Of a DNA stretch of 64,000 nucleotides, positions 4,036 through 49,800 are shown piece after piece. Below the pieces are notes generated by a model. It saw only the letters and a program-made list of their open reading frames with translations. It did not search any database and was not told the DNA's origin. The translations under genes and the position numbers were made by a program. The stretch lies in contig NZ_NBZV01000002.1 in NCBI RefSeq assembly GCF_002379095.1, forward strand, positions 62,001 to 126,000, given 5' to 3'. Position 1 is the first letter of the stretch, and the number at the start of each line of letters is the position of its first letter. Source of the stretch: Polaromonas sp. AER18D-145. Its GTDB lineage: Bacteria; Pseudomonadota; Gammaproteobacteria; Burkholderiales; Burkholderiaceae_C.

Positions 4036-4082
4036 TAAAAAAAAAGAGCGCCTGCAGCGTGAACTGCAGGCGCTCTGTTTTT
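4036..4082. terminator. Bidirectional intrinsic terminator between hydrolase gene and ppa
   Basis: A perfect 12-bp stem (GAGCGCCTGCAG at 4046-4057, its complement at 4064-4075) closes a 6-nt loop. It is flanked by a run of ten A on the left and a T-rich run on the right, so it can stop transcription from both convergent genes. Confidence 0.9.
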
Positions 4083-4135
4083 GATAGCTAATCGCGCTTG
4101 AATGACAAGGGCTGGAGGCCTAAAGTGCTTGAAAA
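4079..4135 (+). repeat. Interspersed ~60-bp repeat, copy R1 (intergenic)
   Basis: This copy carries the family landmarks in order: TTGATAGCT, GCGC, then AAGGGCTGGAGGCC, then an AAAA end. It begins in the T-run of the preceding terminator and ends at the stop codon of ppa. Other copies are at 10326, 16811, 37249, 45224, 46718, 47286 and 49701. Confidence 0.7.
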
Positions 4136-4681
4136 TCAGGCGGCGCTGGATTGCTCTTTCTGGTAGTTGGCAATGCCGTCGGTGATTTCCTTGCGTGCCG
4201 CGTCCGGACCTTCCCAGCCCTGGATCTTGACCCACTTGCCATCTTCGAGGTCCTTGTAGTGCTCAAAGAAGTGGGCGATGGTTTTCAGGCGCAGCGGGTT
4301 CATGTCCTCGGGCTTTTGCCACTGGGTGTACAGCGAGCACTTCTTGTCCACGGGCACGGCCAGCACCTTGCCGTCTTCGCCGGCCTCGTCGGTCATTTTC
4401 AGGATGCCAATCGCGCGGCAGGTCACCACCACCCCGGGGATCAGGGGCACCGGCGTGATCACCAGCACATCGACCGGATCGCCGTCGCCGCTGAGGGTCT
4501 TGGGCACATAGCCGTAGTTGGTCGGGTAATGCATGGACGTGCTCATGAAGCGGTCCACAAAAATCGCACCGGACTCCTTGTCCACCTCGTACTTGACCGG
4601 GTCGGCATTCATCGGGATTTCGATGATCACGTTGAAAGCGTCGGGAGCGTTTTTACCGGGGGTAACTTTATCGAGGGACAT
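4136..4681 (-). CDS. ppa: Soluble inorganic pyrophosphatase
   Basis: Family I cytosolic pyrophosphatase, 181 aa, close to the usual bacterial length. It hydrolyses diphosphate from biosynthesis to two phosphates. The signature DGDPVDVLV is at 66-74 with metal-binding D66, D68 and D71; other conserved blocks are [14 protein letters not shown] and [10 protein letters not shown]. It is transcribed divergently from hppA, the membrane pyrophosphatase, across a 232-bp spacer, so the two enzymes that consume diphosphate sit back to back. Confidence 0.97.
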
Positions 4682-4855
4682 GGTCTCTTTGTGTTGAAGT
4701 AATGAAAAGGTGGATGGCTCAGTCAGTATTTACCCTCATTTTACTGATTCGGACCTGACGCTTCGCGAACTTGTCACGTTTTGGCGTTAAATTTCAAAGG
4801 TTGGCCAATCGTCTTGTCTCTACGTCGGACACGAGCAACGAGGAAGCAACGCAGC

Positions 4856-4881
4856 GGAGGCACCGCTAGCGTGGCGCCTCC
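4856..4881 (+). promoter_or_regulatory. Hairpin in the hppA leader
   Basis: GGAGGC at 4856-4861 pairs with GCCTCC at 4876-4881. An inner CCGC/GTGG stem with a TAGC loop lies inside, separated by one A/C mismatch. It lies 32 nt upstream of the hppA start and just before its strong ribosome site (AGGAGA at about 4900). No T-run follows, so it is more likely a leader element than a terminator. Its function is unknown. Confidence 0.4.
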
Positions 4882-4913
4882 TCCAAGCGAAAAACAACGT
4901 AGGAGATCTCTCT

Positions 4914-7133
4914 ATGACAGGCAACTCAGCGCTTATTCTTACGCTCGTCTGCGGACTGGCCGCCGTGGCTTACGGCTTCTGGGCCCGCAGCTGGATTCTT
5001 TCCCAGGACGCAGGCAACGCGCGCATGCAGGAAATTGCAGCCGCGATTCAAACCGGCGCCGCCGCCTACCTGGCGCGCCAATACAAAACCATTGCCATCG
5101 TCGGCGTCGTGCTGGCCATCCTGATTGGCATCTTTCTCGATGTGCCCAGCGCCATCGGTTTTGTAGTCGGCGCCGTGCTTTCGGGCGCTTGCGGCTTCAT
5201 CGGCATGAACGTCTCGGTGCGTGCCAACGTGCGCACCGCACAGGCGGCCACCCGCGGCATTGGCCCCGCCCTTGATGTCGCCTTCCGCGGCGGCGCGATC
5301 ACCGGCATGCTGGTGGTTGGCCTGGGCCTGCTGGGCGTTACGGCCTTCTACTGGTTTCTGGTGGGCAACGGCAACTACACGCCCAGTGCCAACCTGGCCA
5401 ACCTGCTCAATCCGCTGATCGGTTTTGCCTTTGGCTCCTCGCTGATTTCCATCTTCGCCCGCCTGGGCGGCGGCATTTTCACCAAGGGCGCTGACGTCGG
5501 CGCCGACTTGGTGGGCAAGGTCGAGGCCGGCATCCCGGAGGACGATCCGCGCAACCCGGCGGTGATCGCCGACAACGTCGGCGACAACGTGGGCGACTGC
5601 GCCGGCATGGCCGCCGACCTGTTTGAAACCTACGCGGTGACGCTGATCGCCACCATGGTGCTGGGCGCCCTGCTCGTCACCAACGCCGGTACCAGCGCGG
5701 TGGTTTATCCGCTGGCGCTCGGTGCGGTGTCCATCATCGCGTCCATCATCGGCTGCTTCTTTGTCAAGGCCTCGCCCGGCATGACCAACGTGATGCCGGC
5801 GCTGTACAAGGGCCTGGCGGTTGCCGGCGGCCTGTCGCTGATCGCCTTCTACTTTGTGACCACCTGGCTGATGCCCGACAACGCCATCAAGGCAGCAGGC
5901 ACGCAGATGGCCCTGTTCGGCGCCTGCGCCGTGGGCCTGGTGCTGACCGGCGCGCTGGTCTGGATCACCGAGTACTACACCGGCACGCAGTACGCCCCGG
6001 TGCGCCATATTGCGCAAGCCTCCACCACCGGCCACGGCACCAACATCATTGCCGGCCTCGGCGTGTCCATGCGTTCGACCGCCTGGCCCGTGATCTGTGT
6101 CTGCATCGCGATCTGGGTCTCGTTCCAGCTGGCCGGCCTGTACGGCATTGCGATTGCCGCGACCTCCATGCTGAGCATGGCCGGCATCGTGGTGGCACTG
6201 GACGCCTACGGCCCGATCACCGACAACGCCGGCGGCATTGCCGAAATGGCGGACATGCCACCCGAAGTGCGAGCCGTTACCGACCCGCTGGACGCGGTGG
6301 GCAACACCACCAAGGCCGTGACCAAGGGTTACGCCATCGGCTCCGCCGGCCTGGCCGCACTGGTGCTGTTTGCCGACTACACGCACAAACTCGAAGCCTA
6401 CGGCAAGGCCATCAGCTTTGACCTGAGCGACCCGATGGTGATCATCGGCTTGTTCATCGGCGGGCTGATTCCCTACCTGTTCGGTGCCATGGCCATGGAA
6501 GCCGTGGGCCGCGCCGCCGGCGCGGTGGTGGTCGAGGTACGCCGCCAGTTCCGCGAGATCAAGGGCATCATGGAAGGCACGGCCAAGCCCGAATACGGCA
6601 AGGCGGTGGACATGCTGACGACGGCCGCCATCAAGGAAATGATGATCCCGTCGCTGCTGCCGGTGGTGGTGCCGATTCTGGTCGGCCTGCTGCTGGGCCC
6701 CGCCGCGCTGGGCGGCCTGCTGATGGGCACCATCGTGACCGGCCTGTTCGTGGCAATCTCCATGTGTACCGGCGGCGGTGCCTGGGACAACGCCAAGAAA
6801 TACATTGAAGACGGCAACCATGGCGGCAAGGGCTCCGAGACCCACAAGGCCGCCGTGACCGGCGACACCGTGGGCGACCCCTACAAGGACACCGCCGGCC
6901 CGGCCATCAACCCGCTGATCAAGATCATCAATATCGTGGCGCTGCTGATTGTGCCGCTGATGATGAAGTTCCATGGCGGCAACGCCAATGCAGCGCCGGC
7001 CACCCCGGTGGCCGCTCCAGCGGCAGTGAGCGCGCCGGCCGCCCCGGCGGTCACGCCCACCGCGCCCGGCATGCCCGCTCCCGCGCCTACCCAGGCACCG
7101 GGTGCCGCGGCCACGCCGACGCCAGCGAAATAA
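4914..7133 (+). CDS. hppA: K+-independent H+-translocating membrane pyrophosphatase
   Basis: Polytopic inner-membrane pump of 739 aa that couples diphosphate hydrolysis to proton export. The catalytic block is clear: [20 protein letters not shown], then [20 protein letters not shown]. The segment [10 protein letters not shown] has lysine at the site that separates the two classes (lysine in K+-independent H+ pumps, alanine in K+-dependent ones), so this is called the K+-independent type. A ribosome site (AGGAGA) precedes the ATG. The last ~50 residues form a low-complexity Ala/Pro tail after the final helix, unusual compared with the compact ends of the family. A strong terminator follows. 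The gene is divergent from ppa. Confidence 0.96.
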
Positions 7134-7167
7134 AAGAAAAAAGAAGAAAAAGCCACGCTTTACTTCG

Positions 7168-7189
7168 GCCCGCTTCGGCGGGCTTTTTT
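7168..7189 (+). terminator. Intrinsic terminator after hppA
   Basis: GCCCGC (7168-7173), a TTCG tetraloop, GCGGGC (7178-7183), then six T. It lies 35 nt past the hppA stop and 7 bp before the end of the convergent tetR gene. Confidence 0.9.
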
Positions 7190-7195
7190 GTGTCT

Positions 7196-7810
7196 TCAGC
7201 GCGGTACGGCCAGCACAGCGCGCACCAGCGCACTGCACGGGCCGGTCAGCGCCTGCAAATCGGCCGTTCGGTTGTTTTCGATGGCCTGCAACACCAATTC
7301 GTTGATGCCACCGATGACGGCCATGGCCAGGGTCGCGGTCAGCGCATCGTCCTGCGGCGTTTGCGGATGGCCGGCGTTGACCACCTGGACCACAAAGTCG
7401 GCCATTTCCTGGTTCATCTGGCGCCGCACCTGCAGGCCCTCGGGGCCCAGGCTGAGGATGTCGATGAACAGCGTGCGCAGCAGCGCCGGGTTGCCGGCCA
7501 GACAGGCCAGGTACGCGCCCATCGCGTGCTCGACCTGGGTCTTCCAGTCGCGGCCGGGGTCAATGGCACCTTTGAGCACCTTGAGCCCGCCATGACTGGC
7601 CGCCACATAAAGCGCGATCAGGCAATCCTTCTTGGTGGCAAAACACTCGTAAAACGTGCGTTTGGACACGCCCGCCTCGCGCACGATATCGGCCACCGTC
7701 GTGTCGGCGTAACCCTTGAGCGCCACGCTGTGCGCCATGCCTTCGAGCAGGCGCGAACGGTAGGCCCTGGCCGTTTCCATGCTGGCGGCGGAGATGTCCT
7801 CGGAATACAT
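7196..7810 (-). CDS. TetR-family transcriptional repressor
   Basis: A 204-aa regulator with an N-terminal TetR helix-turn-helix (TTVADIVREAGVSKRTFYECF at ~37-57) and a helical ligand domain. It is divergent from a hydrolase / aldehyde dehydrogenase / SDR operon. The spacer holds two GGTAC-type palindromes that bracket the operon promoter, so it most likely represses that operon and perhaps itself. An aldehyde, alcohol or lipid-like inducer would fit the enzymes, but the ligand is not readable from sequence. Confidence 0.9.
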   Translation of the reverse strand: MYSEDISAASMETARAYRSRLLEGMAHSVALKGYADTTVADIVREAGVSKRTFYECFATKKDCLIALYVAASHGGLKVLKGAIDPGRDWKTQVEHAMGAYLACLAGNPALLRTLFIDILSLGPEGLQVRRQMNQEMADFVVQVVNAGHPQTPQDDALTATLAMAVIGGINELVLQAIENNRTADLQALTGPCSALVRAVLAVPR

Positions 7811-7847
7811 GGGTCAGCCATCCTCAATGCAAAGTTAAAACCATGAC

Positions 7848-7908
7848 GGTACTTGACAGTACCACAGCGTCACCCTATAGTTTCCCTTACTGGTACCCGC
7901 GGGTACCA
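7848..7908 (+). promoter_or_regulatory. Promoter with two palindromic TetR operators
   Basis: A TTGACA box at 7853-7858 and TATAGT at 7876-7881 are 17 bp apart, close to the sigma-70 consensus. Operator 1, GGTACT-TGAC-AGTACC (7848-7863), covers the -35. Operator 2, TGGTACCCGCGGGTACCA (7891-7908), is a perfect 18-bp palindrome just past the expected start site. Both share GGTAC half-sites, as expected for a dimeric TetR repressor encoded next door. Confidence 0.8.
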
Positions 7909-7930
7909 AATTATTTCCATGGGAGAAAAC

Positions 7931-8749
7931 ATGAGTGAACTGGTTGTACGCCGCCTGCTGATTGACCTTGAGACGCCCCTGCCGAGGCACTGGTGTGCCG
8001 GCGATGCATTTCGCACGGCTTTTTTCAACGCACTGTCCATGAGTTTTCCGGTCGGCGAACAGTTCTTCATTGATTCGGTGCGCAACGGCCTGAAAGCCCT
8101 GCCGCCTCCCTTGCAGGACCAGTACAAGGCCGAGGTCCAGGGGTTTATCGGGCAGGAGGCCACGCATCGCCGCGTTCACAGCCTCTTCAACAGCCATCTG
8201 GAAAAACAGGGCCTGGTCAACGACTGGGCGCCGCGTGCTGAAAAAAACATGCAGCTGCTGGCCGGCACCAACCCGCGCCACGCGCTGGCCATTACTGCGG
8301 CCAATGAACACTTCACCGCGATTTTTGCGGAGTGGATGCTGCGCAACCATGACCTGCTTGACGGCTGCGAGCCGCGCCTGAAAACCATGTGGCTGTGGCA
8401 CAGTGCCGAAGAGTCGGAGCACAAGAACACCGCCTTTGACCTGTATGTCGCGCTCGGTGGTAGCCAGGAATGGCGCATCAAGTGGTTCCGCCGCATCACT
8501 TTTGTGTTTTTGACCGACACCCTGCGCCAGACCGTCAACAACCTGTATCACGACGGTACCTTGTGGAAGTGGCGCACCTGGAAAAGCGCCGCCAGCTACC
8601 TGTTCGGTCAGCGCGGACTGATCCGCCAGACCTTCAAACCCTGGCGCGAGTATCTGCGTACGGACTTTCACCCCAACCAGCAGAGCAGCGACCTGTCGGC
8701 GCGCTGGCTGGCCAGCAACACCAGCGCCTACACCCCCGTCGGGGCATAG
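7931..8749 (+). CDS. Predicted metal-dependent hydrolase (PF10118-like)
   Basis: A 272-aa helical protein. Conserved E/H clusters (GQEATHRRVH, NEHFTAIFAEW, WHSAEESEHKNTAFD) look like the metal ligands of the predicted metal-dependent hydrolase family PF10118. The ATG at 7931 is chosen because GGGAGA lies just upstream and because the longer frame would start inside operator 1. It is the first gene of the TetR-controlled operon, followed by aldehyde dehydrogenase and SDR genes. The reaction is not established for the family; context suggests catabolism or detoxification of an alcohol, aldehyde or lipid. Confidence 0.82.
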   Translation: MSELVVRRLLIDLETPLPRHWCAGDAFRTAFFNALSMSFPVGEQFFIDSVRNGLKALPPPLQDQYKAEVQGFIGQEATHRRVHSLFNSHLEKQGLVNDWAPRAEKNMQLLAGTNPRHALAITAANEHFTAIFAEWMLRNHDLLDGCEPRLKTMWLWHSAEESEHKNTAFDLYVALGGSQEWRIKWFRRITFVFLTDTLRQTVNNLYHDGTLWKWRTWKSAASYLFGQRGLIRQTFKPWREYLRTDFHPNQQSSDLSARWLASNTSAYTPVGA

Positions 8750-8769
8750 TCTCGAGCCGACTGGCTCGG

Positions 8770-8789
8770 CTGCTATTCATTTCATAGCG
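8770..8789 (+). repeat. Fragment resembling the 5' part of the ~60-bp repeat
   Basis: CTGCTATTCATTTCATAGCG has the GCTAT...ATAGC inverted end seen in full copies of the interspersed repeat but lacks the GGGCTGGAGGCC part. It lies in the 122-bp gap between the hydrolase and aldehyde dehydrogenase genes. Confidence 0.35.
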
Positions 8790-8871
8790 TATCCCCCTCC
8801 TGAAAAAGGGGCGGCGGCCCGATCCGGCCGGATTTTTTGCGAACCCTGCGTTTTCGCGGAAAATCATATGC

Positions 8872-10305
8872 ATGCAACTCAATTACATCGCCAACGCACC
8901 GGTCCGCTCCGCCTCGGGTAAAACCATTCCTGTGATCGACCCGTCCGACGGACAGGTTTTCGAAGACATCCAGCGCAGCAACGCGCAGGACATTGACACG
9001 GCGGTTCAGGCGGCGCACGACTGCCTGCACACCGTCTGGCACAAGGTCAGTGCCGCCGAGCGTGGTCGCCTGCTGATGGCGCTGTCGCGCAAGGTGGCCG
9101 AACATGCCGAGGAGCTGGCCCTGATCGAGCAGCGCGACTGCGGCAAACCCACCAAGCAGGCCAGGGCTGATGCGGCCGCGCTGGTGCGTTATTTCGAGTT
9201 TTACGCCGGCGCCTGCGACAAGCTGCACGGCGAGACCCTGCCCTACCTGGACGGCTACAGCGTGATGACCTGGCGCGAGCCGCACGGCGTGACCGGCCAC
9301 ATCATTCCGTGGAACTACCCGATGCAGATTTTCGGCCGCAGCGTCGGCGGCGCATTGGCCGCCGGCAACGTCTGCGTGGTCAAGCCCGCCGAAGACGCCT
9401 GCCTGTCGCTGATCCGCGTGGCGCAGCTCGCCGCCGAGGTCGGTTTTCCGGCCGGTGCCATCAACCTCGTGACCGGTTACGGCCACGAGGTCGGCGACGC
9501 CCTGGCCCGCCACAAGGGCATCCACCACATCAGCTTCACCGGCAGCCCGACGGTGGGCACCCTGATCCAGCAGGTGGCGGCCGAGCGCCATTGCCCGGTG
9601 ACGCTGGAGCTGGGCGGCAAAAGCCCGCAAATCGTTTTTGCCGACGCCGACCTGGAGCAAGCCATTCCGGCGCTCGTCAACGCCATCGTGCAAAACGCCG
9701 GCCAGACCTGCTCGGCCGGCTCGCGCCTGCTGGTGGATCAACAGATTTATGAACCGCTGCTGGAGCGCCTGGGCCAGGCCTTCGAGAAGCTGCGCGTCGG
9801 TCCCGCCACGATGGACCTGGACGTGGGACCGCTGATCCGCCAGACCCAGCAGCAGCGCGTCTGGGACTTTCTGAGCGATGCGCAGGTCGCCGGCATCCCC
9901 ATGGTGGCGCAAGGCCAGATCGTCGACGAAGCGCCGGACACCGGCTTTTACCAGGCGCCCACCTTGCTGCGCGACGTGCCGGTGATGCACCGCCTGGCGC
10001 AGGAAGAAGTGTTCGGCCCGGTGCTCTGCGCCATGAGTTTCGAGGGCGAGGACCACGCGATCGAACTCGCCAACGCCACGCAGTTCGGCCTGGTGGCCGG
10101 CATCTGGACCCGCGACGGCGGCCGCCAGTTCCGCATGGCCAAACGTGTCCAGAGCGGCCAGGTCTTCATCAACAACTACGGCGCCGGCGGCGGCGTGGAG
10201 TTGCCCTTCGGCGGCGTCAAGTCGTCGGGTTACGGGCGCGAAAAAGGCTTTGAAGCGCTGTACGGCTTCACCACGCTGAAGACCGTCGCCATCCGGCACG
10301 GCTGA
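8872..10305 (+). CDS. Aldehyde dehydrogenase (NAD(P)+)
   Basis: A full-length 477-aa ALDH-superfamily enzyme that oxidises an aldehyde to the acid. Visible are the oxyanion/cofactor residue N148 (IPWNYP), K171 in VVKPAED, the general base E246 in LELGGKSP and the nucleophile C280 in NAGQTCSAGSR. The C-terminal GGVKSSGYGREKG is typical of betaine-aldehyde / gamma-aminobutyraldehyde-like dehydrogenases. It is cytosolic. It lies in the TetR-controlled operon, and the SDR gene downstream could supply the aldehyde from an alcohol. Substrate unknown. Confidence 0.93.
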   Translation: MQLNYIANAPVRSASGKTIPVIDPSDGQVFEDIQRSNAQDIDTAVQAAHDCLHTVWHKVSAAERGRLLMALSRKVAEHAEELALIEQRDCGKPTKQARADAAALVRYFEFYAGACDKLHGETLPYLDGYSVMTWREPHGVTGHIIPWNYPMQIFGRSVGGALAAGNVCVVKPAEDACLSLIRVAQLAAEVGFPAGAINLVTGYGHEVGDALARHKGIHHISFTGSPTVGTLIQQVAAERHCPVTLELGGKSPQIVFADADLEQAIPALVNAIVQNAGQTCSAGSRLLVDQQIYEPLLERLGQAFEKLRVGPATMDLDVGPLIRQTQQQRVWDFLSDAQVAGIPMVAQGQIVDEAPDTGFYQAPTLLRDVPVMHRLAQEEVFGPVLCAMSFEGEDHAIELANATQFGLVAGIWTRDGGRQFRMAKRVQSGQVFINNYGAGGGVELPFGGVKSSGYGREKGFEALYGFTTLKTVAIRHG

Positions 10306-10325
10306 ACCCGCCCTTCATTTTTCAA

Positions 10326-10383
10326 GAAAAAACAGGCTGCAGCCCTTTCCATTCGGGCGCTAGCAGCTATAACTTTTATAGCA
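10326..10383 (-). repeat. Interspersed ~60-bp repeat, copy R2 (intergenic)
   Basis: Read on the minus strand it begins GCTATAAAAGTTATAGCTGC, then GCGCCC, then AAGGGCTGCAGCC, ending in TTTTTT. It fills most of the gap between the aldehyde dehydrogenase and SDR genes, ending 14 bp before the SDR start. Confidence 0.75.
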
Positions 10384-10397
10384 CCCAAGGAAACACC

Positions 10398-11171
10398 ATG
10401 CGACTCCAGGACAAATCCATCATCGTCACAGGCTCGGGCGGCGGCATCGGCGAAGGCATTGCCAAACGCCTGGCCGCTGAAGGCGCGAAAGTCATCGTCA
10501 ACGACATCAACACCGTCCTTGGCGAAAAAGTTGTGGCCGACATCGTGAAAGCCGGCGGCACCGCCTCCTTCTTTGCGGCCGACGTGACCAAAACCGCCGA
10601 GGTCAAGGCGCTGGTGGCTGCGGCCGTGCAGCGTTACGGCAAGCTCGACGTGATGGTCAACAACGCTGGCTGGACGCACCGCAACCAGCCCGCGCTGGAA
10701 ACCACCGAGGAAGAATTCGACCGCTGCTACGCGATCAACGTCAAAAGCATTTACCTCTCGACCATCCACGCCACGCCGGTGTTCCGCGCGCAGGGCAGCG
10801 GCAGCTTCATCAACATCGCGTCCACCGCCGGCGTGCGCCCGCGCCCCGGCCTGACCTGGTACAACGGCTCGAAGGGTGCCGTCATCACGACCTCGAAGTC
10901 GCTGGCCGCCGAACTCGGCCCGGACAACATCCGCGTGAACTGCATCAACCCGGTGTTCAACCCCGACACCGCGCTGTCCACCCAGTTTGCCGGCGGCACG
11001 GTCACCGGCCCCGAAGGCGAAGCGCGCCGCGCCAAATTCCTGTCCAGCATTCCGCTCGGACGTTTTTCGACAGCGCTCGACGTGGCCAACGCCGCGCTCT
11101 ACCTGGCCAGCGACGAAGCGGCTTTCATCAGCGGTGTGTGTCTCGAGGTGGACGGCGGGCGCTGCGTCTGA
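10398..11171 (+). CDS. Short-chain dehydrogenase/reductase
   Basis: Classical SDR of 257 aa, of the glucose-1-dehydrogenase / 3-ketoacyl reductase type. The cofactor motif TGSGGGIGEG is at 11-20 and NNAG at 88-91. The catalytic set is S142, Y155 and K159 (YNGSK). D36 after the second strand suggests NAD preference, but that is inference. It is the third gene of the TetR-controlled operon. A ribosome site is weak (AAGGAAAC). The substrate is probably an alcohol or ketone related to the aldehyde dehydrogenase upstream. Confidence 0.92.
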   Translation: MRLQDKSIIVTGSGGGIGEGIAKRLAAEGAKVIVNDINTVLGEKVVADIVKAGGTASFFAADVTKTAEVKALVAAAVQRYGKLDVMVNNAGWTHRNQPALETTEEEFDRCYAINVKSIYLSTIHATPVFRAQGSGSFINIASTAGVRPRPGLTWYNGSKGAVITTSKSLAAELGPDNIRVNCINPVFNPDTALSTQFAGGTVTGPEGEARRAKFLSSIPLGRFSTALDVANAALYLASDEAAFISGVCLEVDGGRCV

Positions 11172-15045: not shown

Positions 15046-15222
15046 GCCCCCACGTTTGTCACTTCGTGTACTGCACGAGGCCTTGCAGGCCGCGGCTCGC
15101 GGGGACGCTTCGCCTCTGTCGCCTGTCCAAACCTGCGCAGGCAGGTTTGGAGCCGCAGGCTCCAGCCCCTCGGGGACGCTGCGCCTGCGGCCCGGCAAAG
15201 CCGGTTCCGCGGCCCCGGCTGG
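15046..15222 (+). repeat. GC-rich extragenic repeat, copy B (expanded)
   Basis: It begins GCCCCCACG at 15046 and ends with the block CGCTGCGCCTGCGGCCCGG through GCGGCCCCGGCT, shared with copies near 33820, 36219 and 63391. The centre is expanded by two hairpins: an 11-bp stem with GCAG loop at 15126-15151, and GGAGCC-GCA-GGCTCC at 15149-15163. No T-run follows either, so I do not call a terminator. It fills the moaA-mobA gap. Confidence 0.75.
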
Positions 15223-15272
15223 CAAGGGATATCCGTGGTTATTGAACTGCTCGCTATGAAGATTGGAACCAC

Positions 15273-15905: not shown

Positions 15906-17236
15906 AGTCCATCGCCCAGATCGCCGCCGAACTGCAGGGCTACGATCCGCAGGCCCTGTCCGCCGCGGATGTGCTGCGGTTTTTGTCCCGGCTGGTGGAA
16001 CCGGTGCAGGACGTCGTGGAACTGCCGCTGTTCGAGGCGCTGGGACGCGTGCTGGCGGCAGACGTGGTGTCGCCGTTTGACGTGCCGCCCCACGACAACT
16101 CGGCCATGGATGGCTATGCCTTCGCTGGCGCCCAGCTTGCAGCGGGAACGGCACTGCCCCTGAAAGTCGTGGGCACGGCGCTGGCCGGCAAAGCCTGGCA
16201 GGGCACGGTCGGGGCCGGCGAGTGCGTGAAGATCATGACCGGTGCCATCATGCCGGCCGGGCTGGACACCGTGGTGCCGCAGGAATTTGCCAGCGTTCAG
16301 GGCGACAGCATCACCCTGCCCGCGCAACTGCTGAGCCCCGGCGACAACCGCCGCCTGCGTGGCGAAGACCTCATGCAGGGCCGGCCGGCGCTATCAAAAG
16401 GTGAGCTTCTGACACCCGCCCGCCTTGGGCTGGTGGCCTCTTTGGGCTTGAAAACCGTGGCCACCCGGCGGGCCCTGCGCGTGGCCTACTTTTCCACCGG
16501 CGATGAAATCCTGTCGCTGGGCGAGGCGCCGCGCGAAGGTGCGGTCTACGACAGCAACCGCTACACGGTGTTCGGCATGCTCAGGCGGCTGGGCTGCGAG
16601 GTGATCGACATGGGCGTGGTGCGCGACGACCCGGCCCTGCTGGAAGCGGCCTTCACACGCGCCGCGGCGCAGGCCGATGCCATCATCACTTCCGGCGGTG
16701 TCAGTGTCGGCGAGGCCGACTACACCAAGGCCATGATGAAAAAACTCGGCGACGTGGCCTTCTGGAAAATTGCCATGCGCCCCGGGCGGCCCATGGCGGT
16801 GGGCCGAATCTCTCAAGCAAAATCAGCCTCCAGCCCAATGGATGCGGGCGCAAGCAGCTCCCAAAACAATAGCAATCCGAATGGCGCCATCCTGTTTGGC
16901 CTACCCGGCAACCCGGTCGCGGTGATGGTCACCTTTCTGGCTTTTGTGCGTCCGGCCCTGTTGCAGATGATGGGCAGCACGGCCCCGGCCGCTCCGCTGC
17001 TCAGGGCCCGCAGCCTGGAGCCCATGCGCAAGAAACCGGGCCGCACCGAGTACCAGCGCGGCTGGGTGTCCACCGCCGCCGACGGTTCCCTGCAGGTCAA
17101 GACGACCGGCAACCAGGGCTCGGGTGTGCTCAGTTCCATGGCCCAGGCCAATGGCCTGATCGTGCTGCACCATGCGCAGGGCAGCGTGGCCGTGGGTGAG
17201 GACGTCGACGTGATGATGTTCGAGGGCGCGATCTAA
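15902..17236 (+). CDS. moeA: Molybdopterin molybdenumtransferase with repeat-derived insertion
   Basis: Inserts molybdate into adenylated molybdopterin. A GTG start at 15902 is chosen: it overlaps the mobA stop as GTGA and begins at conserved sequence ([14 protein letters not shown]), giving 444 aa. Conserved MoeA blocks are present: [49 protein letters not shown] and [15 protein letters not shown]. Between RPMAVGRI and [11 protein letters not shown] there are ~21 extra residues (~304-324, Ser/Ala/Asn rich). These are encoded by repeat copy R3 and interrupt the loop just before the active-site PGNP motif. The frame is kept, so the gene is probably functional. Confidence 0.95.
16811..16873 (-). 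repeat. Interspersed ~60-bp repeat, copy R3 (inside moeA)
   Basis: Read on the minus strand: GCTATTGTTTTGGGAGCTGC, then GCGCCCGC, then CATTGGGCTGGAGGCTG, then ATTTTGCTTGAGA. It matches the intergenic copies landmark by landmark but is translated in frame within moeA (residues ~304-324). Confidence 0.85.
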
Positions 17237-35081: not shown

Positions 35082-35495
35082 TTACCGATAGCCCAGAAAA
35101 AGAATGCCGATGTTGACCAGCAGCGCGAGGAACCAGATCACGCTGCGGCTTTTGGCCATGTCGGCCACGTACATCATGACGTAGGCGATGCGCAGCACGA
35201 CAAATACGAACGCAAACACGTCGAGCCGCACCTGCGACGCCTGCAGCTGGTGCGCAATGATCACGGCGGCAAAGAAGAAAGGCAAGGCTTCGAACGTGTT
35301 GGCTTGTGCATGGTTGGCACGCGCGCGCCAGTCGGTCTGGCGCGCCAGCCAGGCACGCGGGTTGTGGTTGTCGAAGCCGCCCCTGTTCACCGGGGTCGTC
35401 ATCGTGCCCCACTTGGCCAGCGCCGCGCAGGCGATCGGCAACAAGGCGGCGGCCAGCAGGCACCAGTAGGCCACGGTGAAACGTGCGTAAGTCAT
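35082..35495 (-). CDS. MAPEG-family membrane protein
   Basis: A 137-aa protein with four helices. The motif NHNPRAWLARQTDWRARANHAQANTFEALPFF is typical of bacterial MAPEG proteins, relatives of microsomal glutathione transferase. It stands alone, between the binding-protein gene and recR. Enzyme activity is unknown. Confidence 0.88.
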   Translation of the reverse strand: MTYARFTVAYWCLLAAALLPIACAALAKWGTMTTPVNRGGFDNHNPRAWLARQTDWRARANHAQANTFEALPFFFAAVIIAHQLQASQVRLDVFAFVFVVLRIAYVMMYVADMAKSRSVIWFLALLVNIGILFLGYR

Positions 35496-35541
35496 GGTGA
35501 AGTGCCTTTCTGGCTTGCAGTCATGGAGGGGTGGGCGCAGT

Positions 35542-35576
35542 CAGCTATAAAAACAGTAGCGATTGAAAGGGGGCGC
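35542..35576 (+). repeat. Fragment resembling the ~60-bp repeat
   Basis: AGCTATAAAAACAGTAGC followed by a GGGCGC stretch resembles the inverted 5' end of the family. The GGGCTGGAGGCC part is absent. It lies just downstream of recR. Confidence 0.35.
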
Positions 35577-35583
35577 AGCCGCG

Positions 35584-36210
35584 CTAGCGGCGATCCACCA
35601 GCGCATGGGCAATCGTGCCGAGGTCCACGTACTCGAGCTCGCTGCCCACCGGCACCCCCCGCGCCAGGCGGGTGACCTGCACGCCGCGGCTTTTGAGCGC
35701 CTGCGCAATCACATGCGCGGTGGCCTCGCCCTCGGCGGTGAAGTTGGTGGCCAGGATGACTTCCTGCACCTCGCGTTCCGCGGCAGCGGGAGGATCACCC
35801 TGCGCGTCTCTGGGCAACACGCGATCGAACAGCTTTTGCAGGCCGATGTCGTGCGGGCCGATGCCGTCGAGCGGGCTGAGCTTGCCCATCAGCACAAAGT
35901 ACAGGCCGCGGTAGGCCAGCGTGCGCTCCAGCGCCGCCTGGTCGGCCGGGGTTTCCACCACACACAGCTTGCCGCGGTCGCGCGCCGGGTTGGCGCAGGT
36001 GCTGCAGATGTCGAGCTCTGTCAGCGTGTTGCACAGCGCGCAGTGTTTGACGCTTTGCACCGCATGTTCGAGCGCCCGTGCAATCTGAAGGGCACCGGGC
36101 TTGTCATGCTGCAGCAGATGAAACGCCATGCGCGCGGCCGACTTCGCGCCCACACCCGGCAGGCGCCGAAGCGCCTGGGTCAGGCCCTCGAGGGCGTTGG
36201 AATCAGCCAT
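35584..36210 (-). CDS. recR: Recombination mediator protein
   Basis: A 208-aa RecR that works with RecF/RecO to load RecA on gapped DNA. The helix-hairpin-helix [17 protein letters not shown] is at the N-terminus. The zinc finger is C57, C60, C69 and C72. A Toprim domain follows ([21 protein letters not shown]). The ATG at 36210 is used because the family starts there; the frame extends nine codons upstream. It belongs to the conserved dnaX-ybaB-recR cluster but is separated from ybaB by a GC-rich repeat. Confidence 0.96.
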
Positions 36211-36218: not shown

Positions 36219-36311
36219 AGCCCCCACGTTCGCTCACTGCGTGTAGCTCTCTGCCCCCCGAGGGGGCGCTGCGCCTGCGGGCCGGCAGAGCCGGACCCGC
36301 GGCCCCTGCTT
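36219..36311 (+). repeat. GC-rich extragenic repeat, copy A (complete)
   Basis: The most complete copy. It opens CCCCCACGTTCGCTCACTGC, continues GTGTAGCTCTCTGCCCC, the palindromic CCCCGAGGGGG core and CGCTGCGCCTGCGGGCCGG, and ends GCGGCCCCTGCTTG. It lies between ybaB and recR, directly upstream of the recR start, and would be in the recR leader if the genes are co-transcribed. Confidence 0.85.
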
Positions 36312-36330
36312 GTGAATGCGAAGACCAAAG

Positions 36331-36692: not shown

Positions 36693-38594
36693 TCATATCG
36701 GCTTGCCCGCCACCGGGGCGAGCGGTTTGATGCTGCCCGGCACAATTCTGGCACCCCAGTCGCGCATCATGTCCTGCACAAACGGGTCGTTGTGAATGGT
36801 TTCCTCGGCCAGGCGTTGCCGCTCCTGCGCGGCGGCGGCATTGCGCCGGGCCGGCGAGTCGCCGACCGGGCCGAGTTCGACCACGAGGGTCGGCGCCTGG
36901 CCGCTGTCGGGCAGCGCGGCCTGCAGGGCCAGCTGGAGTTTTTCACGCGCGGCGGCCTGGTTCAGCGACTCGCGCTCCACGCGCAGGGTCCAGACCCCGT
37001 CGGCCTGCGTGCGCAGCTCGGACTGCAGCGCCAGTTCGCGCGCCAGCGCACCTATCGTTTCGGCAGCCACCATGCGGTTGACCAGCGCCGTCCAGACGTC
37101 GCCGAGCGGGCTGTTCGTGACCAGGGCTGCGGCAGGGGGCAACACAGGGGCTGCAGTTGGCGCAGGCGATGGGGCCGGTGCCGGCGCCGCAGGCAAGGCC
37201 GAAGCCGGAATGGGCAAGGCGTCTTCCCATGGCAAGGGCTCCCTCGATGCTACAAAATCAGGAGCGGGTGGCGCCCGCTGCACAAGGGCAGAAGGCCGAT
37301 TTTCCTCCAGGTTTTGGCGAGCCGGCGGTGCGGCCACCGGGGGGCGAACCGGCGCCGGGGGCGCGACAGACGCCGCGACGGGACGGGCGGCCACGGCGGT
37401 GGCCGGCACACTCTCAGGCTGCGGCTTTTTTGGGGGCTCGACGGCGCCCCCCTGTGCGGCGGCCGCCGTCGTCTTCGTCGTCGCACCCGGGGGTTTGAAG
37501 GCCAGCAGACGCAGCAGCACCATGGTCAGCGCCGCGTAGTCGTCGGGTGCCAGCCCCAGCTCGGCGCGGCCATGCAGGCACAGGCTGTACAGCAGCTGCG
37601 TCTCGTCGGCCGGCATGGTTTGCGCCAGGCGCGCCGTGGCGGCGACCTCGGGGTCGGCATCGTCGTCCCCCGCATCCATGCCGGGCACCGCCTGCAGCAC
37701 CGCCATGCGCTGCAGCACGGTGGCCATTTCCTCGAGCGTGGAGGCGGCGCTCAGGCCGTTCAGGCGCAGCACTTCGGAGGTCTCGACCACACTTTTGCCG
37801 TCGCCGCGCGCCAGCGCATCGAGCAGCTGGAACACATAGCTGCGGTCCACGCTGCCCAGCATCTGGCGCACGCTGGCTTCCTGCAGCTGGCCCGAGCCGA
37901 AGGCAATCGCCTGATCGGTCAGCGACAGCGCGTCGCGCATGGAGCCGCGTGCGGCGCGTGCCAGCAGGCGCAGGGCCTGCGGTTCCGACTCGATGTTTTC
38001 GGCCCGCAGCACCTGCACCAGGTGCTCCAGAATGGTTTCCGGCGCCATCGGCCGCAGGTTGAACTGCAGGCAGCGCGACAGCACCGTGGCCGGCACTTTC
38101 TGCGGGTCCGTCGTGGCCAGCACGAACTTGAGGTACTCGGGCGGCTCTTCCAGCGTCTTGAGCATGGCGTTGAAGGCCGTGTTCGTCAGCATGTGCACCT
38201 CGTCGATCATGAAGACCTTGAAGCGCCCCACCACCGGCTTGTAGACCGCCTGTTCGAGCAACTGGGCAATCTCGTCAACCCCGCGGTTGGAGGCCGCGTC
38301 GAGCTCGGTGTAATCGACAAAACGGCCGCTGTCGATGTCGGTGCAGGCCTGGCAGACGCCACACGGCGTGGCGGTGATGCCGCCCTGCCCGTCCACACCC
38401 AGGCAATTGAGCGATTTGGCGAGGATGCGCGAGATCGTGGTCTTGCCCACGCCGCGCGTGCCGGTGAACAGGTAGGCATGGTGCAGCCGCTGCGTGACCA
38501 GTGCGTTGCTGAGCGCCTGCACCACATGCGACTGCCCGACCATTTCAGAAAAATTCCGGGGGCGGTATTTGCGAGCAAGGACGAGGTAGGACAT
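36693..38594 (-). CDS. dnaX: DNA polymerase III subunit tau (and gamma by frameshift)
   Basis: A 633-aa clamp-loader subunit. Walker A is GTRGVGKT (45-52). A four-Cys zinc module follows (CLGVDG...CGVCQAC), then FMIDEVHML (Walker B) and the sensor-1 region. After residue ~365 comes a long Pro/Ala linker and then the tau C-terminal domain (~510-633). At codons 388-390 the coding strand reads CCA AAA AAG, an in-phase A AAA AAG slip heptamer like that of E. coli dnaX. A -1 slip adds three Ala and stops at TGA, giving a gamma of ~393 aa. Repeat copy R4 encodes residues ~431-449 of the linker. Confidence 0.96.
   Translation of the reverse strand: MSYLVLARKYRPRNFSEMVGQSHVVQALSNALVTQRLHHAYLFTGTRGVGKTTISRILAKSLNCLGVDGQGGITATPCGVCQACTDIDSGRFVDYTELDAASNRGVDEIAQLLEQAVYKPVVGRFKVFMIDEVHMLTNTAFNAMLKTLEEPPEYLKFVLATTDPQKVPATVLSRCLQFNLRPMAPETILEHLVQVLRAENIESEPQALRLLARAARGSMRDALSLTDQAIAFGSGQLQEASVRQMLGSVDRSYVFQLLDALARGDGKSVVETSEVLRLNGLSAASTLEEMATVLQRMAVLQAVPGMDAGDDDADPEVAATARLAQTMPADETQLLYSLCLHGRAELGLAPDDYAALTMVLLRLLAFKPPGATTKTTAAAAQGGAVEPPKKPQPESVPATAVAARPVAASVAPPAPVRPPVAAPPARQNLEENRPSALVQRAPPAPDFVASREPLPWEDALPIPASALPAAPAPAPSPAPTAAPVLPPAAALVTNSPLGDVWTALVNRMVAAETIGALARELALQSELRTQADGVWTLRVERESLNQAAAREKLQLALQAALPDSGQAPTLVVELGPVGDSPARRNAAAAQERQRLAEETIHNDPFVQDMMRDWGARIVPGSIKPLAPVAGKPI
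37249..37305 (+). repeat. Interspersed ~60-bp repeat, copy R4 (inside dnaX)
   Basis: GCTACAAAATCAGGAGC, then GGCGCCCGC, then CAAGGGCAGAAGGCC, then GATTTTCC. It matches the family landmarks and is translated antisense-oriented, in frame, within the tau linker of dnaX. Confidence 0.75.
37388..37431 (-). promoter_or_regulatory. Programmed -1 frameshift site in dnaX
   Basis: On the minus strand the heptamer A AAA AAG occupies 37431-37425 in the zero frame. Nineteen nucleotides downstream is a 7-bp hairpin CGGCCAC-CGCC-GTGGCCG (37405-37388). Upstream, AGGGGGG (37453-37447) lies 15 nt before the heptamer and could act as an internal Shine-Dalgarno. The -1 frame ends after GCC GCA GCC at TGA. The spacings are looser than in E. 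coli, so efficiency is uncertain. Confidence 0.65.
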
Positions 38595-41286: not shown

Positions 41287-41293
41287 CCCGTTG

Positions 41294-43121: not shown

Positions 43122-43125
43122 CACC

Positions 43126-44901: not shown

Positions 44902-44905
44902 GCGA

Positions 44906-45190: not shown

Positions 45191-45223
45191 GGCAACACCT
45201 CTTCAAAAATAAACACTGGATAC

Positions 45224-45286
45224 GCTATCAAATCAATAGCTGTCTTCGTCCGCATGGTAAGGGCTATAACCCGAAATGGCTTAAAA
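45224..45286 (+). repeat. Interspersed ~60-bp repeat, copy R5 (overlaps a stop codon)
   Basis: GCTATCAAATCAATAGCTG, then GTCCGCATGG, then TAAGGGCTATAACCC, then GGCTTAAAA. The final codons and the TAG stop (45264-45266) of the flavoprotein gene lie within it, so this copy supplies the protein's last ~7 residues. Confidence 0.75.
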
Positions 45287-46658
45287 CGCCCTGCCCGGCC
45301 ACGCGGCCGCTGGCAAAACAGGCGCTCAGCAGGTAGCCGCCGGTAGGCGCTTCCCAGTCGAGCATTTCACCGGCGCAAAACACCGGCTGCGCCACGCCCT
45401 GCAGCGTCTGCAGGTGCAGCTGGCCATCCATGGCGTCAAAGCGCACGCCGCCGGCGCTGCTGATCGCTTCGTCGATGGGCCGGGCCGCCACCAGCCTGAC
45501 CGGCAGGGCCTTGATCGCATGGGCCAGTTGCACCGGGTCGCTGATGGCGTCCTTGCCCAGCAGCTCGTACAACATCGCGGCCTTGATGCCGTCGAGATTC
45601 AGCCGGCTTTTGAGGTGGCTGGACAGCGAACGCGAGCCGCGCGGATGCCGCACTTCGACCAGCACCTGCTCGGGCGACTTGTCGGGCAGCAGGTCCAGCA
45701 GGAAAGTCGCGCTGCCCTTCAGTGCAATTTCATCGCGCAGCAGAGGGGAGGCGGCGTAGATCAGGCTGCCTTCGACGCCAGTGGCGGTGGCCACGAATTC
45801 GCCCTTGCGGTGGAAGCTGCGGCCGTGCGAATCGGTCAAATGGATGGCGACCGACTTGAAGGGCTGGCCGGCAAAACGGCTGGAGAAATGTTCGGTCCAG
45901 CCGGCCTGGCGCGCCGGGCTCTGGCCGATCAGCTCCTTGAAGAACTCACGCCGGGTTTCGCCGGCATCCGCCACGGCCTCGGCCAGCTGCGCCGGGCTGT
46001 CGGGCCGCGCGGCCACGTCAAAGCCGCAGTTCGAGGGCTGCAGCGGCACCACCGCCACGCCGCGGGCGGCCAGCAGCGGCACCCAGGCGCCGTCCGAACC
46101 GAGCCGCGCCCAGCTGCCGCCGCCCAGGGCCAGCACCACGGCGTCGGCCTGCACCTGCACCGGGCCGCCGGGTGTTGAAAACGTCAGCGAACCGTCGTCG
46201 GTCCAGCCCAGCCAGCGGTGCCGCATGGAAAACTTCACGCCCGCGGCGCGCAGGCGCTGCAGCCAGGCGCGCAGCAGCGGCGCGGCCTTCATGTCCTGGG
46301 GAAACACGCGGCCCGAGCTGCCGACAAAGGTCTCCACCCCCAGGGCCTGGGCCCAGGCGCGCAGCTCGGCAGGCCCGAAGGCGGCCAGCAGCGGCTGCAG
46401 CTGGGCGCTGCGCTCGCCGTAACGGCTGAGAAAAGGTTCGGCGGCTTCGGAATGGGTGAGGTTCAGCCCGCCCTTGCCGGCCAGCAGAAACTTGCGGCCC
46501 ACCGAAGGCATGGCGTCGTACACCTGCACGGACAGGGCCGCGCCGGCACCGGCCAGCACCTCGGCGGCCATGAGGCCGGCGGGGCCGCCGCCGATGATGG
46601 CCACACGCCGTGGCTGGGCAGGAGAAGTTGAATCGTTCAAGGAAATGTCCGTCTGCAC
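45264..46658 (-). CDS. FAD-dependent oxidoreductase, HI0933/TIGR03862-like flavoprotein
   Basis: A 464-aa flavoprotein. The dinucleotide-binding motif IIGGGPAGLMAAE starts at ~21, followed by GRKFLLAGKGGLNLTHSE, typical of HI0933-like proteins. The C-terminal FAD segment is FCAGEMLDWEAPTGGYLLSACFASG. It is cytosolic; physiological substrate unknown (some relatives handle tRNA or quinones). The extreme C-terminus is encoded by repeat copy R5. Confidence 0.9.
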   Translation of the reverse strand: MQTDISLNDSTSPAQPRRVAIIGGGPAGLMAAEVLAGAGAALSVQVYDAMPSVGRKFLLAGKGGLNLTHSEAAEPFLSRYGERSAQLQPLLAAFGPAELRAWAQALGVETFVGSSGRVFPQDMKAAPLLRAWLQRLRAAGVKFSMRHRWLGWTDDGSLTFSTPGGPVQVQADAVVLALGGGSWARLGSDGAWVPLLAARGVAVVPLQPSNCGFDVAARPDSPAQLAEAVADAGETRREFFKELIGQSPARQAGWTEHFSSRFAGQPFKSVAIHLTDSHGRSFHRKGEFVATATGVEGSLIYAASPLLRDEIALKGSATFLLDLLPDKSPEQVLVEVRHPRGSRSLSSHLKSRLNLDGIKAAMLYELLGKDAISDPVQLAHAIKALPVRLVAARPIDEAISSAGGVRFDAMDGQLHLQTLQGVAQPVFCAGEMLDWEAPTGGYLLSACFASGRVAGQGVLSHFGL

Positions 46659-46717
46659 GTGATGGCAATGTGAAAAGGCACAGGAAGCAGGGCCTCCCGG
46701 CGCGGCCGGTTTGCTTT

Positions 46718-46774
46718 GTTTTTTATAGCTGGCAGCGCCCGTCCCTCAAGGGCTGCAATGCAAAAAGACCTGAA
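46718..46774 (+). repeat. Interspersed ~60-bp repeat, copy R6 (intergenic)
   Basis: TTTTTTATAGCTGGCAGCG, then CCCGTCC, then CAAGGGCTGCAATGC, then AAAAAGACC. It lies in the 161-bp gap between the flavoprotein and the AddA-like gene. Confidence 0.7.
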
Positions 46775-46819
46775 ACCCGGCAAAGGTGCCGGCGCCAGGC
46801 CGATTCGCTGATGCCCTGA

Positions 46820-49800
46820 TTATTGCAGTTCGCCGGAAAGCGCCACCAGGCGGCCTTGGGCCGTCAGAAAAGCTGCCTTGACCGTCTGCCCGCCATACAT
46901 CGCCTGCACCGCCGCGCGGTAGGTCTGCATCTGGGCCAGCAGCGCCGGCTGCTCCTGCGGCGCGCTGGGGGACTTGTAGTCAAGCACCCACCAGTGGCCG
47001 GCATGACCGGCATCCCTGCGCTGCACCAGCCGGTCCAGCCTCAGGGTCTGGCCCTGGTACACCAGCTCGACCTCGTTGCCCTGCCAGGCCACCACCGCGG
47101 CATCCCAGGCCCAGGCGCCCTCGCCCTGCAGAATGCGCTGCGCCATGTCGGCCGCGTCCCGCCCCTGCGCCGCGTCCAGGCGGAACTCGCGCTGCACCGC
47201 GCGCACACGCGCCGGCGAGACACCGCCCCACTCCAGCAGGCGGTGCATGGCCTTGCCGATGCGGGCCACCAGCGCATCTTCGTCTGCTACCGTTTCAATA
47301 GCTGTCGGCGCAGTCAGGACGGGGGCTTGCGGCAATTCCGGCAATAAAAAACGGGTGTCGTCCCCGGACCGGGCCGGATCCAGGACAGGGGCCGGCAGCG
47401 GCGCGGGCAGCTCGCCCACGTGCGCGGCCAGCCGCTGCCACCAGCTGGCCGGCGCCTCGCGGTGCGGCGTGATCGATGACAGCACCAGCGTGCCGCGGGC
47501 GCGGGTCAGCGCCACGTACAGCGCGTTGAGCTCCTCGCGCTGGCGCGCCTCCTGCTCGGCGGCCAGGGCATCGACGGCGCAGGCGGGCGGACGGCTTTCG
47601 CTGACCAGAAAAACAAACTTCTGCGGCGCGGCGGCAGCGCCCGGCCAGTCCACCAGCACGCCCATGCTGTCGGCGTTGCGCTCCACGGTGTCGGTGTCCA
47701 GCAGCAGCACGGCGTCGGCTTCCAGGCCCTTGGCGCCGTGGATGGTCAGCAGGCGCACCGCGGCACTGTCCACCGTCGCGGGCGCCTGCAGGCCGCCGGC
47801 CTTGAGCGCGCGCACGAAGGCGTAAGGCGTGGCATAACGGCCGCCGTCGAGCTGCAGGGCGACCGTCAGCAGCGCGCGCAAATTGGCCAGCACGCCGGCG
47901 CGTTGCGCGGCGGGCGCGGCGGCGGCAAAACGCGCCAGCACGTCGCCGTGGTGGTAAATCGCCTGCAGCGCGTCGTGCGGCGGCAGGCTGCCCAGCCACC
48001 CCTGGTATTGCAGCAAAACCGGCACCAGCGCCTTGATGGCGGGCGGCAGCTGGTCCGATTTTTGTAGCACCTCGAACCACGGCAGGCGCAGCGCCTGGCG
48101 CTCCAGCGCGATCTGCACCAGCGCGTCGTCACCGAGGCCGAACAGCGGCGAACGCAAGGCGCGGGCCAGCGACAGGTCGTGCTCGGGCGAGACCAGCACA
48201 TCGAGCAGCGCCACGATGTCGAGCACCTCGCAGCAGTCGATCAGCGCGGTTTTCTCGCCGACCAGCGCCGGAATGTGCAACGCCCGCAGCTCGTCCTGCA
48301 GCGGCAGCAGGCCGGCGCGTTTGCGCGAGAGCACCATGATGTCGGCGGGCTGCAGGCCTTGCGCCACTTGCTGCGATATCCAGGCTGCGGCCTGGCGCGC
48401 TTCCAGCGTGCGCAAGGTTTCCTCAGGGATCTCGCGCGGCGTGGTCAGGCTGTCGCGCCAGCCGTCCAGCGCGCCGCTGTCCGTCTCTGCGTCCCTGCGC
48501 GGGATGGCCGGCAGGCGGCCGACCGCACCTTCTTCGCCGGAGCCGGTTGTGTGTTCGCGAAAGCCGTCGTAGCCGTCGTTCTCGCGCGCCGCGCTCATCA
48601 CGGCGTTGACGGTGCGTATCACCCCCTGGGCGTTGCGCCGCGTGTGGTCGCAGCTGAGCAGCTCGCCGTCCAGGCCCTGGCGAACAAACTGCTGCGCGGC
48701 CTTGAACACCTGCGGCTCGGCGCGCCGGAAGCGGTAAATGCTCTGCTTGGGGTCGCCCACAATGAACACGCTGGGCGCATTGCCGGCGCCGCCGTAGGCA
48801 CTGAGCCAGGACCACAGCGCCTGCCACTGCAAGGGGTTGGTGTCCTGGAACTCGTCGATCAGCAGATGCCGGATGCGCGCATCCAGCCGCTCCTGCACCC
48901 AGCCCGAGAGCAGCTCGTCGCCGAGCAGCACCAGCGCGACACGTTCGATGTCGTTCATGTCGACCCAGCCGCGCTCGCGCTTGAGGGCGGTGAACTCGGC
49001 GATCAGCAGGCGTGCGAGCCGCGCCATGCGCTGCTGGTAGGCCCAAGCCTCATGCTGCTGGCGTGCAGCCAGCACGCGCGCCACCAGGTCCTGCGCGGTG
49101 CGCACCTGGTCGATGCCGATGATTTTTTCGCCGAACTTGCGCGGCGTGCCTTTCTCGGTCAGCAAGGCGCCGAACACGGCCTGCAGGTTGCCGGTGCCCA
49201 GCGCCTGTTCCAGCTCCACGCCCTTGGCGACAAAGGTCGGTGCACTTGCCCGCGCCAGCGCCACGGCGGCGTCGGCCAAGGTCTGGCGGTGCAGGCGGTT
49301 GCTCGTGAGCAGCTCTTCCGGTTCGGCCAGTCCCTCAAACCCGGCAAACTGCACGGTGAAATGCTGCACCGACGCATCGACCACGCCGCTGGCATCGGCC
49401 AGTGCAAACTCGGTGCGTTTGTCGAGGGCGGCCTGCAGGGCCTTGTCGGTCTGGAAGCGCCCGTGCGCGAGCACCACCGCCTCGAAGTCCGCCTTCAGCT
49501 CCGGCAGTTTCAGCAGCGCCGCGTAAAACCGCCGCCAGACCAGCGCCCGGGCCGGTGCATCGTCTTCAAGCAACTCGTAGTTCAGCGGCAGGCCCTGCTG
49601 CTGCAACACCGCCAGCGGTGCGCTGCGCAGCAAGGCGGCAAACCAGCTGTGGAAGGTGCGTATCTGCACCGCACGGCCGGTGGCCAGAATGCGCTGGTAC
49701 AAATTTGATAGCTGCTCACGTCCGTCTGGCGGTGGCTGCGGGCCTTTTTCGTAGTCAAACCCGCGCATCGCCAGCTCGCGCATCAGGGTTGCGTCGTCGG

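Follow-up and report, generated by a model that had tools for sequence, protein, structure and literature searches.

Short bacterial repeats are usually regarded as relics or as the products of transposases. The Rickettsia palindromic elements (RPE), known from Rickettsia, are short repeats that occupy intergenic sequence and are also read in frame within unrelated proteins; they are mentioned, too, in passages of PMC3733652. The same passages describe repetitive extragenic palindromic (REP) repeats, tagged GTAG or CGTC, as many short palindromic copies, mostly intergenic and some intragenic; Acidovorax, Delftia, Polaromonas and Comamonas are not named in the main text of that paper. Copies of BRE, the Betaproteobacterial repeat (Hot et al. 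2011), are described, in passages of PMC3110155, from Bordetella and Comamonadaceae genomes, sometimes within coding sequence, and measure about 90 bp with 69% GC in Bordetella. Here we describe an interspersed repeat in a 64,000-nucleotide stretch of Polaromonas sp. AER18D-145 (contig NZ_NBZV01000002.1, positions 62,001 to 126,000; hereafter ‘the window’, numbered from its first letter) and we tentatively suggest that it is an ancient non-autonomous Comamonadaceae repeat, spread long ago, whose copies are now retained as putative sites for a host DNA-binding protein.

The repeat has 67 columns, with the consensus TTGCTAT-N2-AWT-N2-ATAGCTGCTNGCGCYYGN5-NAAGSGCTGGAGGCCRATTTGRCTTNAAA and a GC content of 47.7% over 276 copies (371 ungapped copies minus 95 from congeners or duplicates); besides the palindrome GCTAT-N7-ATAGC, a central inverted repeat, GCGCTTG/CAAGCGC, is present in the family consensus. 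Compared by description, it resembles RPE in having in-frame copies in unrelated proteins, here those of moeA, dnaX and an AddA-like gene, so that the likeness to RPE proposed in an earlier sequence-only reading of the window stands as regards in-frame location inside genes; it differs in being 67 bp long, in its Comamonadaceae hosts and in having arms without compensatory double changes. With REP repeats it shares many short palindromic copies, mostly intergenic and some intragenic, but columns 16-19 read ATAG in 237 of the 276 copies and GTAG in 19, the copies are not gathered round a Y1 gene, and the second stem is mostly preceded by GCTN and followed by TGGA, flanks that do not carry the REP tetranucleotide. 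It also differs from BRE (67 bp and 48% GC) and, unlike miniature inverted-repeat transposable elements, has no terminal inverted repeats: the best 10-base end match was 5.59 versus 5.29 in shuffled copies (one shuffle per copy). An Rfam search of the window returned only the signal recognition particle RNA above gathering score and left the repeat unmatched, and no published description was found, by sequence or by subject, in the open-licence literature, an account in older subscription literature being possible; this agrees with the earlier reading, which knew of none.

The repeat is a genuine interspersed family of about 67 bp, beyond chance. A covariance model without base pairs was built from 23 aligned copies, 20 with an exact core, among them the 4069 copy of the window, and three others from the window. 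Run on the window with filters off, this sequence-only model matched all eight positions that the earlier reading had listed, of which four (4069, 10318, 16809 and 45219) are rows of its alignment and match by construction while the other four are independent, and added a ninth that was absent from that list. On the whole of the window's own genome (4.82 Mb) it gave at least 150 matches, the 150 candidates scored all reaching E 1.9e-9 or better, and the core AAGGGCTGGAGGCC, a 14-mer, occurs there 77 times with at most one mismatch, against once for the reversed pattern. A family-wide hidden Markov model (HMM) at E 0.01 likewise separated the repeat from its control, with 189 matches in 1.48 Mb (nine sequences) against 0 in the same sequence reversed, and 186 of the 189 show no net length change. 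By this HMM the own genome holds 63 copies in 561,304 bases, which scales to some 540 for that genome, and another genome of the set (G004) holds 26 in 220 kb. Part of the agreement among copies in TGGAGGCC comes from having seeded the HMM with core-pattern copies; columns 45-52 are still conserved at 74-92% in a sample taken by exact palindrome (60 taken, 7 unorientable ones dropped; 36 from pattern-fetched loci).

In whole genomes, the repeat is confined to the window's family. A 37-base core pattern with up to three mismatches was found in 16 of 60 family genomes (own included), in up to 156 copies per genome, with all reversed controls at 0 among the genomes listed; in 274 genomes drawn from the whole class, at up to two mismatches, the two that matched were the own genome and another of the same family (G283), and none of the 271 genomes outside the family did, where the reversed control matches once. 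Among the genomes listed, the palindrome GCTAT-N7-ATAGC alone occurs 13-317 times in 22 of the 60 family genomes and at most seven times in the remaining 38 (reversed control at most five), and 117 genomes of the order outside the family have 0-10 palindromes, with controls at 0-48. The 80 named loci listed belong to Acidovorax, Ottowia, Comamonas, Giesbergeria, Simplicispira, Diaphorobacter, Alicycliphilus and Ramlibacter, or to metagenome-assembled genomes named only to a higher group; these genera are all Comamonadaceae. One genome that is negative for the full pattern (G031) carries the same palindrome, again in high number, with a different, A/T-richer tail, roughly TGCTTAGGCAATAAATACGCCGGCTACAGCC as judged by eye from few copies (L315, L318), and these copies may represent a subfamily sharing the palindrome but not the tail.

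Per-base rates in orthologous copies distinguish resemblance among copies from selection still acting at each place, and they single out one palindrome. We counted minimum changes per site in 38 orthologous sets of 3-6 genomes each, enlarged through further syntenic stretches from a first 20 in which the arms were already kept while the loops changed. The arms of GCTAT-N7-ATAGC changed at 0.087 per site (bootstrap 0.050-0.132) and the adjacent TGCTN at 0.537 (0.432-0.645), about six times the arm rate; the other parts gave 0.305 for the first loop, 0.632 for the second loop, 0.438 for TGGAGGCC, 0.217 and 0.382 for the outer and inner second arms, 0.164 for ATTT and 0.411 for AAA, with flanks, much of them coding, at 0.218-0.228. 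Columns 27, 41, 42 and 55 are likewise slow (0.05-0.13). The arm rate was 0.067 once sets called intragenic were set aside (27 sets left) and 0.138 in the intragenic ones (interval 0.036-0.267), and, by eye, the palindrome is preserved in at least some decayed copies. Intergenic ATAGC/GCTAT words outside the repeat differed at 0.108, 0.162 and 0.136 per site in three congeners (G357, G364 and G380 respectively), where the repeat arms differed at 0.044, 0.059 and 0.065, and fourfold sites differ at 0.141-0.238; a general mutational cold spot does not account for the arms, since the control words are mostly faster and fourfold sites faster too. In intergenic copies compared with these three and with the nearest relative, G387, the second loop and TGCTN differ at 0.17-0.38, at or above the fourfold yardstick. 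Such constraint in place on the arms, read from aligned copies, would suggest selection on a double-stranded DNA site that is bound by a protein.

Base pairing points the same way. Among 24 variable pair-sites in the arms of the 38 sets there was no compensatory double change that kept pairing, which favours a double-strand binding site over a hairpin, and 17 of the 24 include an unpaired member. At column 8, 98 of the 276 copies have a C that faces an A and so is mismatched, and the C is not accompanied by G; changes on both sides of the first stem were not commoner than in shuffles (62 own-genome copies). The second stem, in its own-genome register GCCC/GGGC, is 78.5% paired, compensatory changes not being seen there, and the mutual information of columns 30 and 42 may mark subfamilies only. 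Folding compared with shuffled sequence gave a mean z of about -0.7 in 60 own copies and of -1.4 to -1.9 in 60 family copies. If the palindrome acted as single-stranded DNA or RNA, compensatory pairing would be expected in its GCTAT/ATAGC arms, and none was seen.

Within the window, the nine copies lie between genes, at a gene end and inside open frames. The first, at 4069-4136(+) (E 5e-15), lies between two convergent genes, which end at 4025 and 4136; an inverted repeat at about 4046-4082 runs into it, with its second arm and T-run falling on the first columns of the copy. The next, at 10318-10385(-) (E 4e-15), occupies a 92-bp gap between two + strand genes (8872-10305 and 10398-11171). Copy 16809-16877(-) (E 1e-15) is in frame and antisense in moeA, where about 23 extra residues precede FGLPGNPV: residues 306-330 face only residues 292-293 of the solved MoeA 1fc5, which we take to be that of E. 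coli. The ninth copy, 35505-35564(-) (E 5e-6), lies between - strand genes 35082-35495 and 35584-36210, and 37246-37308(+) (E 5e-9) is in frame and antisense in dnaX (- strand, 36693-38543), in the proline-rich part of tau. Copy 45219-45287(+) (E 5e-14) overlaps the 3' end of the - strand gene 45264-46604, and 46709-46758(+) (E 7e-9), best preserved in its 5' part, lies between two - strand genes. The last two are in frame and antisense in a 1078-codon - strand gene (46820-50056) for which we keep the earlier reading's putative label, AddA-like: a partial copy at 47284-47333(+) (E 2e-4), where the window model matches only at its positions 5-34 (47284-47313), and a degenerate one at 49698-49755(+) (E 1e-4). 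The four in-frame copies claimed earlier are therefore all inside open frames, and their assignment to loops or linkers is borne out for moeA and dnaX. A lone exact GCTAT-N7-ATAGC palindrome at 8772-8788, with the rest of the repeat missing, was a weak match (E 0.04, no strand assigned). A further match within moeA, 16388-16453(+) (E 3e-4, 16.8 bits), was rejected as an insert: the encoded segment aligns without gaps to solved MoeA, and the match is lost in the window with the family-wide HMM, although its counterpart in G380 scores 23.4 bits; the resemblance of this conserved coding segment to the whole repeat is probably due to chance.

Six of the nine window copies (10318, 16809, 37246, 45219, 46709 and 49698) predate the split of the four nearest congeners, occurring at the orthologous place in G387, G357, G364 and G380 with lengths that differ by 0-15 bp among congeners; at the 49698 site, five relatives have a version 12 bp longer. 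The 4069 copy is common to three of the four congeners, its flanks being unpaired in G387; the 35505 copy was recognised only in G387 and G357, and the 47284 copy was not found at the orthologous place in the five relatives compared. Identity to the four congeners is 73-78% around 47284 and 49698, versus 83-88% around 46709 and 84-94% around 37246, which suggests that part of the AddA-like gene (about 47000-50000) was replaced by recombination. Across 30 moeA loci of the genus (own included), two (L180 and L196) have short loops and lack the repeat, as does solved MoeA, so the orthologues support a net insertion there. No recent insertion was seen among the congeners where flanks could be paired, three matches near stretch ends having fallen outside the comparison, and the empty sites among those listed are old, and too diverged to define insertion ends or a target-site duplication.

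A second, GC-rich interspersed repeat lies in the window at 15174-15224, 36220-36314, 54560-54598 and 63391-63441, and it resembles, in length and composition, the BRE of Hot et al. 2011; we call it BRE-like on that resemblance only. It occurs in frame in the same MoeA loop, next to the 67-bp repeat or in its stead, at three loci of the genus (L170, L173 and, twice in tandem, L177), with a remnant at a fourth (L172); the moeA of L173 has it in place of the 67-bp repeat. An Ottowia copy of the 67-bp repeat (L146, 5197-5263) stands at an intergenic site that holds the GC-rich repeat in the window's genus.

The placement of copies was judged from genes called by our own codon-usage script rather than by a published caller. 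Of 63 own-genome copies, 39 are intergenic, nine overlap a gene end and 15 (24%) are intragenic; with 88.7% of the sequence coding, genes hold fewer copies than their share. The statement in the sequence-only reading that the repeat invades coding sequence was thus right as to in-frame copies and a net insertion in moeA, and overstated as to frequency and recency. Intragenic copies prefer frames without the palindrome-derived TAG, eight of ten sense copies and four of five antisense copies each keeping to one phase. A stop codon lies within 40 bp in 30 of the 42 copies adjoining a gene's 3' end, and gaps between convergent genes hold 15 of the 48 non-intragenic copies while holding 15% of intergenic bases. 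Between co-directional genes 13 copies are sense and 14 antisense, and inside genes ten are sense and five antisense; an impression from the window copies that orientation is mostly antisense was dropped, the larger own-genome sample being balanced between co-directional genes.

The repeat was shown to be dispersed, restricted to the family and old, to form a net insertion in moeA and to be constrained in place at the columns named below. On this basis we propose that it may have spread long ago through ancestral Comamonadaceae genomes as a non-autonomous short interspersed element, and that the survivors would be those in the least harmful places: just past stop codons, between convergent genes, or in open frames in protein loops. 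A host DNA-binding protein would then use the copies, which would be kept in place for this. Its main contact would be the palindrome GCTAT-N7-ATAGC with its A/T-rich centre, and further contacts might be made at CG (columns 27-28), GSGC (41-44) and TTT/AAA (55-57), at a spacing of roughly two helical turns; in the 276 copies, TTT and AAA exchange as blocks at columns 55-57, which behave as A-tracts would. The role of the putative binder would probably be a nucleoid or gene-end function.

Several points weigh against this proposal. Seven of the 24 variable arm pair-sites remain paired, by wobble or one-sided change, and the first stem is 85.8% paired in own-genome copies, which would be compatible with a hairpin. 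In the nearest relative, G387, the intergenic control words (0.033, 60 sites) are as slow as the arms (0.032, 156 sites), so that the contrast between arms and control words rests on the more distant relatives. The orthologous sets are few and their genomes share one tree, making the observations non-independent; and the extra contact columns were chosen from the same data that show them to be slow, columns 28, 43 and 44 being moderate (0.16-0.24).

The alternative that survives best, though we consider it unlikely, is that the repeat acts as RNA at the 3' ends of genes, transcribed hairpins shaping mRNA ends through stability, processing or attenuation and the arms being selected for that. 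The nearness of 30 of 42 copies to a stop codon and the 15 of 48 between convergent genes would suit it, as would folding slightly better than shuffled, a palindrome that could function in either sense of transcription, and the pairing kept at seven of 24 variable arm pair-sites. It is opposed by the lack of any compensatory double change in the arms and by an arm pair that is a C-A mismatch in 98 of 276 copies; sense and antisense copies are, moreover, equally common between co-directional genes (13 versus 14), and the arms appear slow in intragenic sets too (0.138, interval 0.036-0.267).

That the present copies are the products of a REP-like element moved as single-stranded DNA by a host Y1 transposase of the REP-associated tyrosine transposase (RAYT) type is, in our view, improbable. 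A Y1_Tnp gene was matched in 15 of the 16 element-positive genomes searched, and the high copy number, the absence of terminal inverted repeats and the central GCGCTTG/CAAGCGC would fit, but the gene was also present in 23 of 33 pattern-negative family genomes, and in one genome (G020) Y1_Tnp is missing despite 235 palindromes. In three of 14 element-positive genomes the Y1 gene has a copy directly beside it, one of these copies being weak, which is about the expectation from general density: with 48 non-intragenic copies to 517 called genes, roughly one gene in five would adjoin a copy anyway, and the 14 neighbourhoods of 4.5 kb held four copies where about seven are predicted from own-genome density. 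The prevalence of ATAG over GTAG as the tag counts against it likewise. With the Y1 gene present irrespective of the repeat, and copies not clustered round it, a RAYT as the mover is unsupported. The RAYT-like Y1 genes themselves (L263-L282) mostly occur once per genome and show good conservation across the family.

Slightly less probable still is a functionless selfish relic, whose apparent constraint would be an accident of few sets and of the way in which copies were found. No recent insertion was seen, the second loop, TGCTN and TGGAGGCC drift, the search patterns are biased toward intact cores, and control words are as slow as arms against G387, all of which would speak for it; yet columns 4-8 lie outside the pattern that seeded the HMM (though within the HMM itself) and are among the slowest, the divergence of a seed's orthologues should not fall because the seed was the best-scoring member of its set, and against the three distant relatives with better sampling it is the control words that change faster. 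A DNA-uptake-like sequence maintained by biased transformation and recombination would share the hundreds of copies on both strands, the family specificity and the A/T-rich spacer, but a 67-bp unit of fixed spacing (186 of 189 without net length change) and a net insertion in moeA make it hardly credible.

The repeat is also found outside chromosomes, and there it meets a catalogued protein family. Its consensus matches 11 plasmid records, six of which have a ‘DUF1010 domain-containing protein’ beneath the match, while phage records gave no match; in two plasmid records examined, the repeat is antisense in the DUF1010 frame and lies between cassettes of class 1 integrons. In passages of PMC11616780, a DUF1010 cassette of ‘uncharacterized protein’ accounts for 42 among 195. 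A search of 14 genomes with Pfam DUF1010 gave matches at E 0.1 in nine, above cut-off in three, against four of 14 in controls, all below cut-off; at least eight of the 15 own-genome places listed (of 23) have a repeat copy at the same position on the other strand. Many weak DUF1010 matches span model positions 1 to about 22 of 66 and correspond to the antisense strand of copies, and so the first third of the model looks like the repeat read in reverse. One genome (G010) has a tandem array of DUF1010 matches in which four repeat copies alternate with GTTAGAC sites; by inspection, neither attC core site, GTTRRRY or RYYYAAC, is in the repeat consensus, and GTTAGAC lies outside the copies in the L322 array. 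On these alignments, Pfam DUF1010 (PF06231) looks like repeat plus cassette-end sequence and not a true protein family (L319, L320, L322): what is annotated as a protein would be DNA that stays open in that frame.

Taken at its furthest, our preferred reading, of an old repeat retained as binding sites, would have a mobile repeat become hundreds of selected sites for one family-specific chromosome-organising protein, the palindrome being under selection in each copy as its surroundings drift, with copies also exported beyond the family in integron cassettes and their reverse strand catalogued as a protein family; we regard this whole as possible but doubtful. In practical terms, reverse-strand repeat seems to make up part of what is catalogued as a Pfam family and annotated as an integron cassette ‘protein’. 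If the copies are bound by a protein, they may represent a chromosome-organising or gene-end system extending across the family.

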